Below are positions 10,325-46,299 of a stretch of 52,117 nt of DNA, piece after piece. The notes under the pieces were generated by a model. It saw only the letters and a program-made list of their open reading frames with translations, ran no database searches and was not told the origin of the DNA. Source of the stretch: Candidatus Magasanikiibacteriota bacterium (GTDB lineage: Bacteria; Patescibacteriota; Patescibacteriia; Magasanikbacterales; UBA922); assembly GCA_016207245.1 (NCBI GenBank), contig JACQQA010000003.1:1-52117 (forward strand), in the 5' to 3' direction. Positions within the stretch are counted from its first letter, which is position 1; each line of letters begins with the position of its first letter. The position numbers and the translations under genes are program-made.

Positions 10325-10912
10325 ATGCTTGAACAACTTTTTGGCTCAAAGACTCGGTTCAGAATTTTGCGCGCATTTTTCGCTCATCCGGAGCGGTCTT
10401 TTTTCGTGCGGGAATTGTCTCGCGCGATTGACACTCAGCTCAACGCTGTCCGGCGCGAGTTGGAGCTGTTAGTTAATATCGGTCTGTTGAAAGATGGTGA
10501 AGGCAGAGACGATCTTAGCCAGGGCGCCAGTCTGCGCAAGTATTACGCGTTAAATCTGCAGTCGCTGATCTACCCGGAAGTGCAGGCGCTTATCACCAAA
10601 CTTCAAATCTTGGGCCAGCAGGAGCTGATTAAAGAAATAAAAGAAAAAGGCGGAGAAGTCAAACTGCTTTTGTTGAGCGGGCTCTTCACCAACGACCGCG
10701 ACGCTCCGAGCGATCTTCTGGCGGTTGGCAAGCTGAAAGATAAGACTATCGCGAATTTAATCGCCAAACACGAAAAAGAACTGGGCGTTGAAATCCGTTT
10801 TACCTTAATGAGCGAGCCGGAATTCAAAGAGCGCCGGCAGATGATGGACAAATTCATCTTCGCGCTGTTTGAGGCGAATAACGCAAAAGTGATAAACGCG
10901 CTAAATGTCTAA
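10325..10912 (+). CDS. Winged-helix transcriptional regulator
   Basis: 195 residues. Residues 1-75 form an ArsR/MarR-like winged helix (SKTRFRILRAFFAHPERSFF, VRELSRAIDTQLNAVRREL, a basic GASLRKYYAL wing). Residues 100-190 (VKLLLLSGLFTNDRDAPSDL) resemble a nucleotidyltransferase-like effector domain but lack the GS-DxD catalytic signature. ATG 10325 was chosen because upstream codons are inside the low-complexity repeat. Its stop codon lies in the left arm of the four-helix-bundle cassette. The regulated genes are not evident. Confidence 0.7.
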   Translation: MLEQLFGSKTRFRILRAFFAHPERSFFVRELSRAIDTQLNAVRRELELLVNIGLLKDGEGRDDLSQGASLRKYYALNLQSLIYPEVQALITKLQILGQQELIKEIKEKGGEVKLLLLSGLFTNDRDAPSDLLAVGKLKDKTIANLIAKHEKELGVEIRFTLMSEPEFKERRQMMDKFIFALFEANNAKVINALNV

Positions 10913-10948
10913 TTTCTAATGTCTAATGACAAATAAAATGTCAAATGA
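10903..10948. repeat. Left arm of four-helix-bundle cassette 1
   Basis: AT-rich quasi-tandem arm (TCTAATTTCTAATGTCTAATG core) complementary to 11366-11405. It contains the stop codon of the upstream regulator and the start codons of the cassette gene. Most mismatches between the arms are G-T wobbles. Confidence 0.75.
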
Positions 10949-11366
10949 ACGGAATTCTAAATATAATCTTGAGGAAAGAACAGCTAAATTTGGCGAAGAC
11001 ATTATTATGTTCGTCAGAGAGGTTGGTGGCGATAGCAAGGATTACATCGTGGAGGCGATTTTAAAACAGTTAGTGCGTTCTGGCATTTCTGTGGGCGCTA
11101 ATTACTGTGAAGCGGATTGCGCTGAGACCAAAAAAGATTTCGAACATAAGATTGGTATTTGCAACAAGGAAGCCAAAGAAACGAAACATTGGCTGAGGAT
11201 GATCGCAAAGGCAAAAACTAACCAAGCGGAAAGCGCTAGAAAATTATGGAAAGAGGCGCACGAATTAAATTTGATTTTCACGTCTATTATTAGAAAATCA
11301 AAAGAAAACAGTGTTAACGAAAAAATTGAAAATTTTAAGAAAAATAATGCCGGAGAAAACAATTAA
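10926..11366 (+). CDS. Four-helix-bundle protein (S23/IVP-like)
   Basis: 146 residues (142 if ATG 10938 is used). It belongs to the four-helix-bundle family first known from the open frame inside 23S rRNA intervening sequences (TIGR02436/PF05635) and related to the Avd protein of diversity-generating retroelements. Key features are the LEERTAKFGEDIIMFVRE first helix, the conserved SGISVGANYCEA turn and the KKDFEHKIGICNKEAKETKHW third helix. It forms ring-like pentamers in known relatives and probably binds nucleic acid. Here it is outside rRNA, between a regulator and tsaB, bounded by complementary arms. No reverse transcriptase or template repeat is nearby. Confidence 0.85.
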   Translation: MTNKMSNERNSKYNLEERTAKFGEDIIMFVREVGGDSKDYIVEAILKQLVRSGISVGANYCEADCAETKKDFEHKIGICNKEAKETKHWLRMIAKAKTNQAESARKLWKEAHELNLIFTSIIRKSKENSVNEKIENFKKNNAGENN

Positions 11367-11405
11367 TCATTCGGCATTTTATTGGATATTAGAAATTAGG
11401 CATTT
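11366..11405. repeat. Right arm of four-helix-bundle cassette 1
   Basis: Complementary to 10903-10948 with one gap of about six bases. It begins at the cassette gene's stop codon and ends 10 nt before the tsaB start. Confidence 0.75.
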
Positions 11406-11415
11406 GTCATTTATC

Positions 11416-14994: not shown

Positions 14995-15026
14995 CTTTAT
15001 ATGTAAGAATCGACAGCGTTGTTTAT

Positions 15027-15191
15027 ACTTCTTAAAGTCATTGCGAGCCTTCGCAGGCGAAGCAATCCACACCGTTATCGCGTTCCCACGCGATTGCTGG
15101 ATTGCTTCGTCGCGCGAGCTCCTCGCAATGACTGATTTGCCACATAAAGCTCGTAAAAGTATAAACAACGCGACTAATTCTTACACTTTAT
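15027..15191. repeat. Long dispersed repeat, copy 2 (CATTGCGAG family)
   Basis: Almost base-for-base identical to 1-165 at an offset of 15026, with a T/C change at 62/15088 and a few differences at the 3' end. It lies between mobile-domain paralog 3 and the minus-strand phosphatase. Confidence 0.9.
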
Positions 15192-34799: not shown

Positions 34800-36173
34800 A
34801 TGGTGACAAAAAAACAATCTTCCAATTCAGGCGCGTATGTTATCACCGTTGATATGGGCTATGGCCATCAACGGGCGGCTTTTCCATTGCGCGATTTTGT
34901 TGTTGGTTTAGACGGGATTAAAAGCGAGATGGGGATTATCAACGCCAATAATTACGCCGGGATTCCAAATGTTGACCGCCGGCGCTGGGATGGCGGGCGC
35001 AGATTATATGAAAGAATCTCCCGTTTAAAAAATTTACCGCTGATCGGCGAAACGATTTTTTCCGTAATGGATTATTTTCAGCGCATTGAGCCGTTTTATC
35101 CCAAACGAGATTTATCCGCGCCGACAGTTCAGCTCAAAACAATTTATTCAATGATTCGGAAAGGGTGGGGGAGAGATTTGATTGAACGGCTGAATAAAAA
35201 TCCTTTGCCGTTAGTCAGCGCGTTTTTTTCTCCGGCCTATTTCGCCGAGGAACACGGCTATAAAGGCGAAATCTATTTAATCTGCTGTGATACTGATGTG
35301 TCGCGCGCGTGGGCGCCGCTGGTTCCGGCCAAAAGCCGGATAAAATATTTGGTGCCTAATCGCCGCGTTAAAGAGCGGCTGGGATTGTATGGCGTCAAAC
35401 CGGAGCAAATTTTTGTTACCGGTTTTCCTCTGCCGAAAGAAAATATCGGCGGCCGTGATTTGCGGGTATTGAAAAAAAGTTTGGGGGAAAGAATCGCTCA
35501 TTTGGATGAAGACGGACGGTATCGCAAAAAATATCATGAAACATTAAAAGAATTTTTGGGCGATAATTATTGTCCGATCGGTTTTGCTTCCAAACATCCG
35601 CTGACGATTACTTTCGCCGTCGGCGGAGCCGGCGCGCAAAGAGAATTGGGCGCGCAGATTGTAACCAGCTTGCGCCACCACATTGATAAGGGACTGCTGA
35701 GATTAAATTTAATCGCCGGCGCGCGCAACGATGTTTATTTATACTACCAGCGCGTGATTAAAGAATTGGGATTGTTAAAAAAACAAAACGGCCATGTTAA
35801 TATTTTATTTGCTGATAATAAATTGGAATATTTCAAAAAATTTAATCAAATTTTGCTCGCCACTGATATTTTGTGGACCAAACCGAGCGAACTGTCTTTT
35901 TACGCCGGTTTGGGCTTGCCGATAATTATGGCGCCGACCGTCGGCTCGCAAGAAGAATTTAATCGGCAGTGGCTGGAATCAACCGGCGCCGGCGTTCAGC
36001 AGGAAAATCCGCGCTACACGCACGAGTGGCTGTTTGATTGGCTGAAATCCGGCTGGCTGGCCGAGGCGGCGATGAACGGCTTTCTTCACGCTCCGCGCAA
36101 CGGCGCATATCATATTGAAGAAGTAGTATTAAAAAGTAAGAGGAGCGAAATAGAGGATATACACTTGTTGTAA
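34800..36173 (+). CDS. GT-B glycosyltransferase-like protein
   Basis: 457 residues. The N-terminus VITVDMGYGHQRAAFPLRDF is like the GxGH-x-A loop of MurG and monogalactosyldiacylglycerol synthases. YLICCDTDVSRAWAPL near 160, VPNRRVKERLGLYGVKPEQI near 185, LTITFAVGGAGAQRELG near 270 and TDILWTKPSELSFYAGLGLP near 360 (GGxT..E-like nucleotide site) complete a GT-B pattern. It may be a processive lipid-glycan transferase; substrate unknown. A DMT transporter and a GH-like gene follow. Confidence 0.75.
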   Translation: MVTKKQSSNSGAYVITVDMGYGHQRAAFPLRDFVVGLDGIKSEMGIINANNYAGIPNVDRRRWDGGRRLYERISRLKNLPLIGETIFSVMDYFQRIEPFYPKRDLSAPTVQLKTIYSMIRKGWGRDLIERLNKNPLPLVSAFFSPAYFAEEHGYKGEIYLICCDTDVSRAWAPLVPAKSRIKYLVPNRRVKERLGLYGVKPEQIFVTGFPLPKENIGGRDLRVLKKSLGERIAHLDEDGRYRKKYHETLKEFLGDNYCPIGFASKHPLTITFAVGGAGAQRELGAQIVTSLRHHIDKGLLRLNLIAGARNDVYLYYQRVIKELGLLKKQNGHVNILFADNKLEYFKKFNQILLATDILWTKPSELSFYAGLGLPIIMAPTVGSQEEFNRQWLESTGAGVQQENPRYTHEWLFDWLKSGWLAEAAMNGFLHAPRNGAYHIEEVVLKSKRSEIEDIHLL

Positions 36174-36262
36174 TTTTCAATTACCAATTATCAATTTTCA
36201 AACAAATTTTTAATTTAATTTTTTTAATTTTTTCTGAGAATTGGTAATTGGGAATTGAGTAT
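36174..36262. repeat. Empty inverted-repeat unit between stop and start
   Basis: CAATTACCAATTATCAATTTTC (36178-36199) and its near complement GAGAATTGGTAATTGGGAATTG (36236-36257) enclose about 35 nt of A/T. The upstream stop and the downstream ATG 36269 abut the two arms, as in the four-helix-bundle cassettes. Confidence 0.7.
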
Positions 36263-36268
36263 TAATCT

Positions 36269-40109: not shown

Positions 40110-40131
40110 ATATGATAATACCAGTGTTGTC

Positions 40132-40240
40132 TGTCATTGCGAGGAGGAGTTCGCGCGACGACGAAGCAATCCAGTCGTCAACGATTAACGAACGTGGATT
40201 GCTTCGTCAGCCGATGCGAATCGGCTTCCTCGCAATGACA
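40132..40240. repeat. CATTGCGAG-family repeat between aclB and aclA
   Basis: TGTCATTGCGAGGA at one end pairs with TCCTCGCAATGACA at the other, and GACGAAGCAATCCA pairs with TGGATTGCTTCGTC inside. Fills almost the whole aclB-aclA gap. Confidence 0.88.
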
Positions 40241-40247
40241 GAGGCTG

Positions 40248-44033: not shown

Positions 44034-44068
44034 TTGGAGTTGGCTAAGTTATCTAAGTTAGTTAAGTT

Positions 44069-44371
44069 ATGAGGTTAAGTGTGGACCAAATTGAGGAAAT
44101 TGCCCGGCTGGCTCGTTTGGAATTAAGCGAGAAAGAAAAAAAAATATACGCCGAACAGTTATCGGTTGTTTTGGATTATATGGAAATGTTGAATGAAGTA
44201 AATACGGATGGAGTAGAGGAAACTTGCCAGGTGACCGGATTGGAAGATGTGGTGAGGAGCGATAAAGTTGTAGAATGTCCGCCGGGGGTTGAAGAAAAAA
44301 TAATCGGAAATTTTCCGGAGAAGGTAGGGAATTTGTTGAAGGTGAGGGCGGTGTTTAGTGAAGCAGAGTAA
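44069..44371 (+). CDS. gatC: Asp/Glu-tRNA amidotransferase subunit C
   Basis: 100 residues. GatC supports GatA folding and the GatA-GatB interface in tRNA-dependent Gln/Asn formation. LSVDQIEEIARLARLELSEK and VVLDYMEMLNEVNTDGVEET are diagnostic. The stop codon falls in the left arm of the second four-helix-bundle cassette, which separates gatC from gatA. Confidence 0.93.
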   Translation: MRLSVDQIEEIARLARLELSEKEKKIYAEQLSVVLDYMEMLNEVNTDGVEETCQVTGLEDVVRSDKVVECPPGVEEKIIGNFPEKVGNLLKVRAVFSEAE

Positions 44372-44400
44372 GCAGAATAAGCAAGGTAGGAAGCAGAGTA
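44361..44400. repeat. Left arm of four-helix-bundle cassette 2
   Basis: AAGCAGAGTAAGCA (44361-44374) is the perfect complement of 44799-44812; further GAATAAGCAAGG/AAGCAGAGTAA units follow. It includes the gatC stop codon. Confidence 0.78.
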
Positions 44401-44415
44401 AAGTAACTGTAAAAT

Positions 44416-44787
44416 ATGGCGCAGATACAGACTTTTAAGGATTTAGTGGCATGGCAAAAAGCACACGAACTTGTCTTATGTGTGTATCAGACAACTAATT
44501 TGTATCCAAAACATGAACTCTTTACATTAACAAGTCAAACACGACGAGCCGCGATATCAGTACCAGCTAACATTGTTGAGGGTTTTCGAAGAAAAGGATT
44601 GCGGGATAGCATAAATTTTTATAATATTTCCGATGCTTCATTAGAGGAACTCAAGTATCACTTATTGCTTGCAAAAGATTTAAAATACATTGATGAAATT
44701 GTATATGGCGTTGTTCAAAAAAAATGTGAAGATGTGGGCAGACTTTTAACAAGATGGATACAAAGCCAGCGTAAATATCTTGCTTAA
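44416..44787 (+). CDS. Four-helix-bundle protein (S23/IVP-like), second copy
   Basis: 123 residues of the same family as 10926-11366: FKDLVAWQKAHELVLCVYQT, RRAAISVPANIVEGFRRKG (the conserved S-x-P-x-N-I-x-E-G turn) and DSINFYNISDASLEELKYHL. The two copies share little sequence beyond family motifs. It interrupts gatC-gatA, with arms overlapping the gatC stop and ending just before gatA. Confidence 0.9.
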   Translation: MAQIQTFKDLVAWQKAHELVLCVYQTTNLYPKHELFTLTSQTRRAAISVPANIVEGFRRKGLRDSINFYNISDASLEELKYHLLLAKDLKYIDEIVYGVVQKKCEDVGRLLTRWIQSQRKYLA

Positions 44788-44798
44788 TCTGCCTTTTT

Positions 44799-44812
44799 TG
44801 CTTACTCTGCTT
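44799..44812. repeat. Right arm of four-helix-bundle cassette 2
   Basis: TGCTTACTCTGCTT, perfect complement of 44361-44374, 2 nt before the gatA ATG. Confidence 0.85.
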
Positions 44813-44814
44813 AT

Positions 44815-46299
44815 ATGCTGAACAGATTGACAATCCAACAAGCCCACGACGGTTTGAAAAAAAAAGAGTTTTCCTCGGTTGAGCTGACGCGAGCGTGTTT
44901 GAAAAGAATTAAAGAGCGCAACAAAGATATTAACGCGTTTATTTCAGTTTTTGAGAAAGAAGCGTTGGACGAGGCAAAAAAGGCTGATGAGCTTATCAGT
45001 GGAAAACCCTTCGGCAAAGCTCAGGGTAAACAAAAAGCGCTGACCGGTATTCCGTTTTGCGTGAAAGACGCGATAAACACCAAGGACAGGCGTTCAACCG
45101 GCGCGGCGAAAATTTTGGATAATTATGTTCCGCCGTTTGACGCGACGGTGATTAAAAAAATTCGCGAGCAAGGCGCGGTGTTGTTGGGGAAAAATAACTG
45201 CGACGCTTTTGGTCACGGCGCGAGCAATGAAAATTCAATGTATGGTCCGGTAAAAAATCCTCATGACTTAACAAAAGTCGCGGGCGGTTCATCCGGCGGA
45301 ACAGCCGCGGCCGTGGCTGACGATATGTGCGTTTTTGGCATTGGCGAAGACACCGGCGGTTCAATCCGCCAGCCGGCAAGTTTTTGCGGCGTTGTCGGCC
45401 TGCGTCCGTCTTACGGCCGAAATTCGCGTTACGGCATTATGCCGATGGCCTCATCGTTGGACACAGTCGGGCCGATAACGAAAACTGTGGAAGATTGCGC
45501 GATTGTGGAAGAAATTATCGTTGGACCTGATGAGTTGGATGCGACGACAGTCCAAAATCATAAATCAAAAATCATAAATCAAAAATCTTTGCGGGTTGGG
45601 GTGCCGAGAGAATATTTTTCCGCCATAGGCGGACCCGCCTTTGGCGGGAATGGGATGGATGGGGAGGTGAAAAAATTGATTGAACGAAAGATTGAAAGAC
45701 TAAAAGATTTGAAGACTTGTCCTGAGCGGAGCCGAAGGATTACGATAGTTGATGTGAGTTTGCCGATGACGAAATACGCGATTCCGGTTTATTATATTAT
45801 CGTGCCGAGCGAAGATTCATCTAATCTCGGGCGATTGGATGGCATTCGTTACGGCGTGCGCGCAGAAGCGGAAAATTTATATGATGTTTACGCGAAATCG
45901 CGCGCGCAAGGTTTTCCTGAAGAAGTAAAACGCCGGATTATGATCGGCACTTACGCGCTATCCGCCGGTTATTACGATGCGTATTATCGCAAAGCGCAAA
46001 AAGTTCGCACTTTAATTATTCAGGATTTTAATCAAGTATTTAATAATGTTGATGTATTATTAACCCCAACCTCGCCGTTTCCCGCGTTTGGGATCGAGGA
46101 AAAGAAAAATGATGTTTTGGCGATGTATCTGGCAGATGTTTTTGTTGGAGCGGCGGCTTTAGCTGGATTGCCGGCAATCTCTGTGCCGGCAGGAAAAACT
46201 AAATCCGGTTTGCCGGTTGGCTTGCAAATTATTGGACCGAGATTAAAAGAGAATTTAGTTTTTCATACGGCTAAATTAATTGAAAATTATGCGCATTGA
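44815..46299 (+). CDS. gatA: Asp/Glu-tRNA amidotransferase subunit A
   Basis: 494 residues. Amidase-signature glutaminase supplying ammonia to GatB. Catalytic Lys in IPFCVKDAIN near 82, cis-Ser in VAGGSSGGTAAAVA near 158 and nucleophile Ser in GEDTGGSIRQPASFCG near 182 are all kept. Four DNA repeats sit in frame: KPFGKAQGKQ (45007-45026), QNHKSKIINQKS (45551-45585), SAIGGPAFGGNG (45619-45649) and TCPERSRRIT (45720-45739), all apparently at surface loops. gatB is not in the window. Confidence 0.95.
   Translation: MLNRLTIQQAHDGLKKKEFSSVELTRACLKRIKERNKDINAFISVFEKEALDEAKKADELISGKPFGKAQGKQKALTGIPFCVKDAINTKDRRSTGAAKILDNYVPPFDATVIKKIREQGAVLLGKNNCDAFGHGASNENSMYGPVKNPHDLTKVAGGSSGGTAAAVADDMCVFGIGEDTGGSIRQPASFCGVVGLRPSYGRNSRYGIMPMASSLDTVGPITKTVEDCAIVEEIIVGPDELDATTVQNHKSKIINQKSLRVGVPREYFSAIGGPAFGGNGMDGEVKKLIERKIERLKDLKTCPERSRRITIVDVSLPMTKYAIPVYYIIVPSEDSSNLGRLDGIRYGVRAEAENLYDVYAKSRAQGFPEEVKRRIMIGTYALSAGYYDAYYRKAQKVRTLIIQDFNQVFNNVDVLLTPTSPFPAFGIEEKKNDVLAMYLADVFVGAAALAGLPAISVPAGKTKSGLPVGLQIIGPRLKENLVFHTAKLIENYAH
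45007..45026. repeat. PERSRR-type palindrome inside gatA (1)
   Basis: CCCTTCGGCAAAGCTCAGGG, translated as PFGKAQG. Confidence 0.82.
45551..45585. repeat. ATCATAAATCAAAA tandem units inside gatA
   Basis: Slightly more than two units of ATCATAAATCAAAA in frame. Confidence 0.75.
45619..45649. repeat. TCCGCC/GGCGGA palindrome inside gatA
   Basis: TCCGCCATAGGCGG followed by ACCCGCCTTTGGCGGGA; same kind as 40407-40436 in aclB. Confidence 0.8.
45720..45739. repeat. PERSRR-type palindrome inside gatA (2)
   Basis: TCCTGAGCGGAGCCGAAGGA, translated as CPERSRRI. Confidence 0.82.

Follow-up and report, generated by a model that had tools for sequence, protein, structure and literature searches.

A four-helix-bundle gene between inverted repeat arms at a gatC-gatA junction, a probable extra-ribosomal relative of 23S rRNA intervening sequences

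In the genome of a Candidatus Magasanikiibacteriota bacterium (687-kb assembly, G000), a small cassette separates gatC from gatA within the 52,117-nt stretch of DNA that we analysed (hereafter the window). Our reading, which we consider probable, is an element related to the intervening sequences (IVS) found in 23S rRNA but located outside rRNA genes, with repeat arms that are specific to its lineage and without a recombinase of its own. In such an element, one gene for an IVS protein (IVP, or S23p) would lie between two inverted arrays of 7-9-nt units able to fold into a single long stem, and the whole would insert at gene boundaries.

IVS elements have for decades been curiosities of 23S rRNA, and we know of no function for their protein. 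The same layout of protein and stem is now seen dispersed across genomes, with arm repeats that track the lineage of the protein. The IVP thereby gains a testable candidate ligand, its own repeat unit, and IVS elements could be tied to the unexplained arrays of short repeats found in intergenic regions. If the reading is true, the cassette would represent a mobile element that spreads without its own recombinase.

The gatC-gatA cassette and its protein

The genes gatC (44069-44371, + strand, PF02686) and gatA (44815-46299, + strand, PF01425), both taken from the ORF list, lie 443 nt apart, and this spacing holds a 123-aa ORF on the + strand (44416-44787). The 14-mer AAGCAGAGTAAGCA at 44361-44374 has its complement at 44799-44812. 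This perfect match is the outer part of longer, imperfect arms on the + strand (44361-44383 and 44790-44812) of 23 nt each, which are 87% complementary and enclose 406 nt. The last codons and stop of gatC (GAA GCA GAG TAA, stop at 44369-44371) fall at the left arm's outer end, while the gatA ATG (44815) begins 2 nt past the end of the right arm. Beyond its first 14 nt, the left arm carries 9-nt copies of AAGCAGART and runs on to about 44401 in degenerate form (AAGCAGAGT, AAGCAGAAT, AAGCA..., AAGCAGAGT). An earlier note on the window had described a second cassette with a perfect 14-bp complement at this place, and this observation is confirmed here. The IVP is the sole gene between the arms, with no transposase there, and the predicted RNA fold pairs the arms (z −2.87).

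A chance palindrome was excluded, since the 14-mer is confined to its two arm positions across the 687-kb assembly, the inverted-repeat score of the insert (15.5) was matched by none of 200 shuffles, and matched flanks of IVP genes outscored mismatched ones (see below). At 44034-44074, a tandem array (CTAAGTTAT CTAAGTTAG TTAAGTTATGAGG) enters the start of gatC; it has no inverted partner and is possibly half an element.

The insert ORF is intact and matches PF05635 (E = 1.1e-33) and TIGR02436 (E = 1.5e-31), both above the cut-offs of the profiles; this gene family is S23p, the "23S rRNA intervening sequence protein". Its solved relatives by sequence are PDB 2gsc and 2rld. The DivGenRetAVD profile also matched it (E = 2.4e-12), below the cut-off of that profile. 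Passages of published work report a pentamer for the S23p protein of Xanthomonas (PMC4990558), remark on the homology between Avd and IVP (PMC10053308) and list IVP among the proteins close to CRISPR adaptation modules (PMC10910872).

The IVP is under purifying selection, with dN/dS values of 0.024-0.132 in 15 of 16 mostly orthologous pairs, the remaining pair being undefined. Together with the persistence of the element at orthologous sites, which likewise tells against the reading we prefer, these low values suggest a retained function over a purely selfish element. The IVP and its hairpin could thus be a regulatory unit that acts in place, by autoregulation or by processing of the operon mRNA, and that has lost its mobility. 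In 27 of 31 pairs, the arms of one locus match each other better than they match those of the orthologue, as such a unit would have it, but this comparison favours the within-locus match by construction. Neighbouring genes moreover differ at most IVP loci (flank homology was seen in 41 pairs and was lacking in 2734), and the element is present, absent or replaced among species of a single genus. For these reasons we regard an immobile regulatory unit as unlikely.

Repeat arms and empty sites

PF05635 was found in 35 of the 46 genomes of the family, in up to 16 copies, and the window genome has 8 matches. One of these (L008) is the other IVP copy of the window (10926-11366, + strand), the start codon of which lies inside its left arm (10902-10948, + strand), built from a TCTAATG-type unit; its right arm spans 11367-11413 (+ strand). 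Comparison of this first cassette (about 10.9-11.4 kb) with the one at gatC-gatA showed that their arms are unrelated, bearing out the claim that self-complementary arms differ between copies within one genome.

Such arms are a general feature of IVP genes. Across 91 ORFs at 90 loci (L061 and L119 give more than one ORF), matched left and right flanks had a median score of 18.0, compared to 9.0 for mismatched flanks, and a score of at least 14 was reached by 69 of the 91 matched pairs and by 1.8% of the mismatched ones. When species genomes were scanned with the IVP of the window cassette, 49 named loci from many phyla were returned, including one archaeon; seven short, partial or similar loci were dropped before counting, and in 35 of the 42 examined the arms scored at least 13, against 4.9%. 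The best period over 170 arms was 7 nt in 89, 8 in 39, 9 in 33, 10 in 7 and 11 in 2 arms, so that 161 arms have a period of 7, 8 or 9 nt, with a self-match of 0.72 compared to 0.45 after shuffling. Each arm consists of degenerate 7-9-nt units in an array, and the two arrays of an element lie in inverted orientation on either side of the IVP gene. At L073, the gene upstream of an IVP copy reads into the arm repeats and thereby acquires a repetitive tail. Two PF05635 members are armless, L081 in the same-genus genome G005 and L010 in the window genome (G000:C9:3817-4116); the latter adjoins RVT_1 matches at C9:2940-3589 and is probably the avd gene of a diversity-generating retroelement (DGR).

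The arm unit follows the protein. In 110 elements with an arm score of at least 13, out of 133 (91 + 42), arm similarity tracked IVP similarity over 225 non-orthologous pairs with a protein similarity of at least 0.55 (mean 8.40 compared to 5.43 after permutation, P = 0.0002). The association held in the 35 named elements alone (123 pairs, 8.04 compared to 6.05, P = 0.0002) and in the 75 family elements alone (80 pairs, 9.48 compared to 5.66, P = 0.0002), and it extends across phyla: AGAATACAGGATACAG-type arms were found again at loci of Planctomycetota, WOR-3 and Elusimicrobia. The closest full-length IVP, 67% identical to that of the window, lies at an unrelated locus of Magasanikbacteria GW2011_GWC2_37_14 (L244), beside a gene that we take to be murC-like from the start of its protein. 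Its arms are built from the AAGCAGA unit of the window, with AAGCAGAATAAGCAGATTAAG in the right arm (as reverse complement) and AAGCAACAAGCAGATTAAG in the left. The automatic arm search had overlooked L244 (score 8.5) because the IVP gene is separated from the right arm by a second ORF of unknown kind (1879-2247 of that locus); the loop can thus carry additional cargo. Units containing AGCAGA also occur at L059, L099 and L106. The IVP most similar to that of the window in the 110-element comparison (L248; 0.74, partial protein) has TAAGTAAT arms instead, indicating that the unit drifts and that arms diverge fast, which counts against our preferred reading. From these comparisons we conclude that the arms are, to all appearance, a property of the element, that is of its IVP lineage, and not of the site. 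Since the unit belongs to the lineage of the protein, it is very probably what the protein recognises.

The gatC-gatA site itself gives a less uniform picture. A genome of the same genus, G006, has an empty site (L013) that reads ...GAAGCAGAGTAAGCA|ATATGCTGAACAG..., at the bar of which the window species (L003) has 438 bp (44375-44812, + strand). This insert ends in 14 nt that are reverse-complementary to the 14 nt preceding the bar, so that the empty site and the outer left arm are identical over 14 of 14 nt, and the 14-mer is native to L013. One arm hence is identical to target sequence, which the other repeats in inverted form; comparison of filled L003 with empty L013 revealed no direct target-site duplication. 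The earlier note had suggested aligning the junctions of relatives with and without the insert, and it is this alignment that uncovered the exact arm in the empty G006 site. Element-borne arms alone do not predict such a match.

The insert is not a fixed feature of the lineage. The order provided 83 gatC-gatA junction loci, of which three (L030, L233, L239) could not be parsed; of the other 80, 51 are tight, with a spacing of no more than 28 bp, and 29 have a gap of at least 30 bp. An IVP, sought in the nine gaps of 150 bp or more, was found in one, that of the window, so that the gene parts gatC from gatA at 1 of 80 parsed junctions. The third species of the genus, G005, has a different, IVP-less hairpin there, made of GACATAG units. 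Over the 29 wider junctions, gatC ends matched their own right arms above chance (permutation, P = 5e-5), a signal that is driven by eight junctions and that also weighs against our reading, while the controls did not differ from expectation (inside gatC, P = 0.39; from gatA, P = 0.26 and 0.36).

These matches are what arms templated by the target would produce. Under that mechanism, a 3′ end at the target would be extended by fold-back and slippage, the arms being degenerate local copies and the IVP a cargo of the loop. It would account for the 14-nt identity at L013, for the agreement of gatC ends with right arms, for IVP-less hairpins at gatC-gatA that use other gatC ends (L012, L015, L016, L017) and for L075 and L144, which share one diverged hairpin with an IVP in the former and a 39-nt loop in the latter. 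However, gatC tails are variable and poorly conserved, and the arm may have become the tail instead of copying it. Clean insertions elsewhere gave little sign of target matching. Comparison of stretches from three species of the genus (249, 190 and 128 kb) yielded 36 indels that were clean, one-sided and at least 35 bp long; 12 of them carry hairpins matched by none of 200 shuffles. Indels #14 and #29 being one insertion, these amount to 11 distinct insertions, three of them with an IVP. With #14 and #23 left out, the ten remaining hairpin insertions resembled their empty sites at P = 0.014, a value carried by the window's own event (#13) alone; the other nine empty sites have no clear arm match. 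A general resemblance of arms to their targets is therefore not claimed. Copying from the target was dropped as a rule, since arm units go with the IVP lineage even where loci are unrelated and phyla differ, and the window's own AAGCAGA unit recurs at L244, in another species. The proposal in the earlier note that the insertion site is the source of the arms was to fall if arms recurred elsewhere as fixed element ends. L244 supplies that outcome and, with the 110-element test and nine of the ten insertions, leaves the proposal unsupported as a general rule. The note's other ground for refutation, a gatC-gatA pair always parted by this gene in the lineage, did not apply, so that its interpretation is supported in part. 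We hold target templating to be distinctly improbable.

The 14-mer at L013 could also be a footprint, an older AAGCAGA element having been lost from G006 with its outermost left repeat remaining as the tail of gatC. No target matching would then be required, and AAGCAGA-type repeats at the gatC-gatA junctions of other genera (L018, L025, L027) make an old occupancy plausible. Removal must, however, have stopped precisely at the right arm's outer boundary although neither end has direct repeats, and none were seen at L013 when precise excision was considered in place of insertion; the preponderance of tight junctions further makes the empty site the usual state. We view a footprint as possible, if doubtful. 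An element with arms of its own, the reading we favour, would instead have inserted beside a native gatC end that resembled the unit (GCAGAGTAAGCA), after which hairpin-templated correction would have kept both arms identical. Target resemblance, an older copy and such correction could each explain the match.

Gene-less hairpins

Many hairpins of this kind lack a gene. The stretches of the three species hold 25, 22 and 13 IVP-less hairpins (one of the 13 is a run of Ns), and a block-shuffled control returned none, compared to 20 in six G000 stretches. At several junctions (L008/L146, L079/L150), one species has an IVP element where a second species has an unlike hairpin that lacks the IVP. Fifty-nine gene-less hairpins were more similar to the IVP arms of their own genus than to equal-sized samples of arms from other genera (12.53 compared to 9.27, P = 0.0016, Wilcoxon test), and 17 of them reach 14 against same-genus arms. 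One example in the window (36171-36264) has AATTTTCAATTACC-type repeats and resembles the arms of the sister-species IVP copies L078 and L079. Gene-less copies would probably rely on an IVP supplied in trans. The IVP copies seen do not account for the remaining hairpins, among them a GC-rich TCATTGCGAGG family.

Several other hairpins were noticed. GC-rich hairpins of the form TCTGTCATTGCGAGG...GACGAAGCAATCCA occur at 40130-40242 of the window, at L164 (772-856), at L156 (16174-16279) and elsewhere, in both G000 and G005, and one was also seen as a clean insertion (#27). CAGAATACAGATAACAG units make up at least seven hairpins without an IVP on contigs C9 (L167, L185) and C4 (L164) of G000. A 20-kb span (L167) contains five of these, yet none of the IVP copies seen in G000 has this unit. 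An inverted pair of a different repeat kind, TGTAAGAAT...GCGTTGTTTATACTT, with a 126-nt loop, lies at 15002-15185 of the window and again at L170 (10042-10238), giving at least two copies in the genome.

Known elements and mode of movement

The closest described system is the 23S rRNA IVS of Coxiella burnetii, which passages of PMC4990558 present as a selfish element of 428 nt whose ends are complementary and which carries an S23p gene, the latter preceded by tandem heptamers (GACAGAT, GACAGAA); it is excised by RNase III, and mobility was proposed in older print (PMC4990558). As far as these passages go, the cassette shares with it an S23p/IVP gene, a length of about 430 nt, one stem formed by complementary ends and short tandem repeats. 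Unlike it, the cassette lies between the protein genes gatC and gatA and not in a helix of 23S rRNA, and IVP elements here occur in many copies per genome, with differing units linked to IVP lineage and with gene-less hairpins. With its IVS protein, stem and short repeats but a site outside rRNA, it was classed as a variant and not as a 23S IVS. No link between IVP genes outside rRNA and repeat arms was found in the open-licence PMC literature.

TAACTGA heptamer arrays, described in passages of PMC4679880 from Beggiatoaceae, cyanobacteria and Bacteroidetes, are likewise intergenic and patchily distributed, near start codons, by a mechanism that was not evident to their author; in these passages they differ from the cassette in having one fixed unit in direct repeats. 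That paper draws no link from the arrays to S23/IVP, and the terms 'S23', 'intervening sequence' and 'four helix' have no matches in its main text. The arrays may be related to IVP elements, which we offer as a lead only. A broader proposal, which we put forward tentatively, would be a class of recombinase-free mobile elements in bacteria and archaea, in which a pentameric IVP and a lineage-specific hairpin move jointly and choose or rebuild unit-like targets, 23S IVS and perhaps heptamer arrays being special cases.

For the element as we read it, an IVP that is pentameric like its solved homologue would bind the array of units within the folded arm, either as RNA or as single-stranded DNA at a fork. 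Because the cassette encodes no nuclease, recombinase or reverse transcriptase, insertion would be carried out by host replication or repair enzymes. The inserted stem would be a substrate of RNase III, parting the messages of gatC, IVP and gatA as in the Coxiella IVS.

Could the cassette instead be an ordinary transposon remnant or a MITE that depends for its movement on a DGR reverse transcriptase or an IS200/RAYT Y1 transposase? G000 does encode candidates, two RVT_1 matches on contig C9 and a single Y1_Tnp on C4. The cassette is on C3, though, with no reverse transcriptase near gatC-gatA, the RVT_1 matches lying beside another, armless PF05635 copy, and with no link to the lone Y1_Tnp. The IVP belongs to the same fold family as DGR Avd. 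REP/RAYT and MITE systems have gene-less hairpins with sequence common to their gene-bearing copies; the cassette differs from them in having no Y1 transposase inside or alongside and in having degenerate repeat arrays as arms. In the draft assemblies, and hence provisionally, RVT_1 is absent from 19 of the 35 IVP-bearing genomes, and RVT_1 and Y1_Tnp are both absent from 11 of them, including one with nine IVP copies (G034); Y1_Tnp is absent from 25 of the 46 family genomes. Movement driven by either enzyme is not supported by this distribution, and judging by gene content neither appears to be needed genome-wide. The missing target-site duplication in L003 and L013 also counts against a transposon remnant, an origin that we find very improbable. 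In G032, fragments of Y1_Tnp stand at many contig ends, which suggests that an abundant IS200-like element interrupts this assembly.
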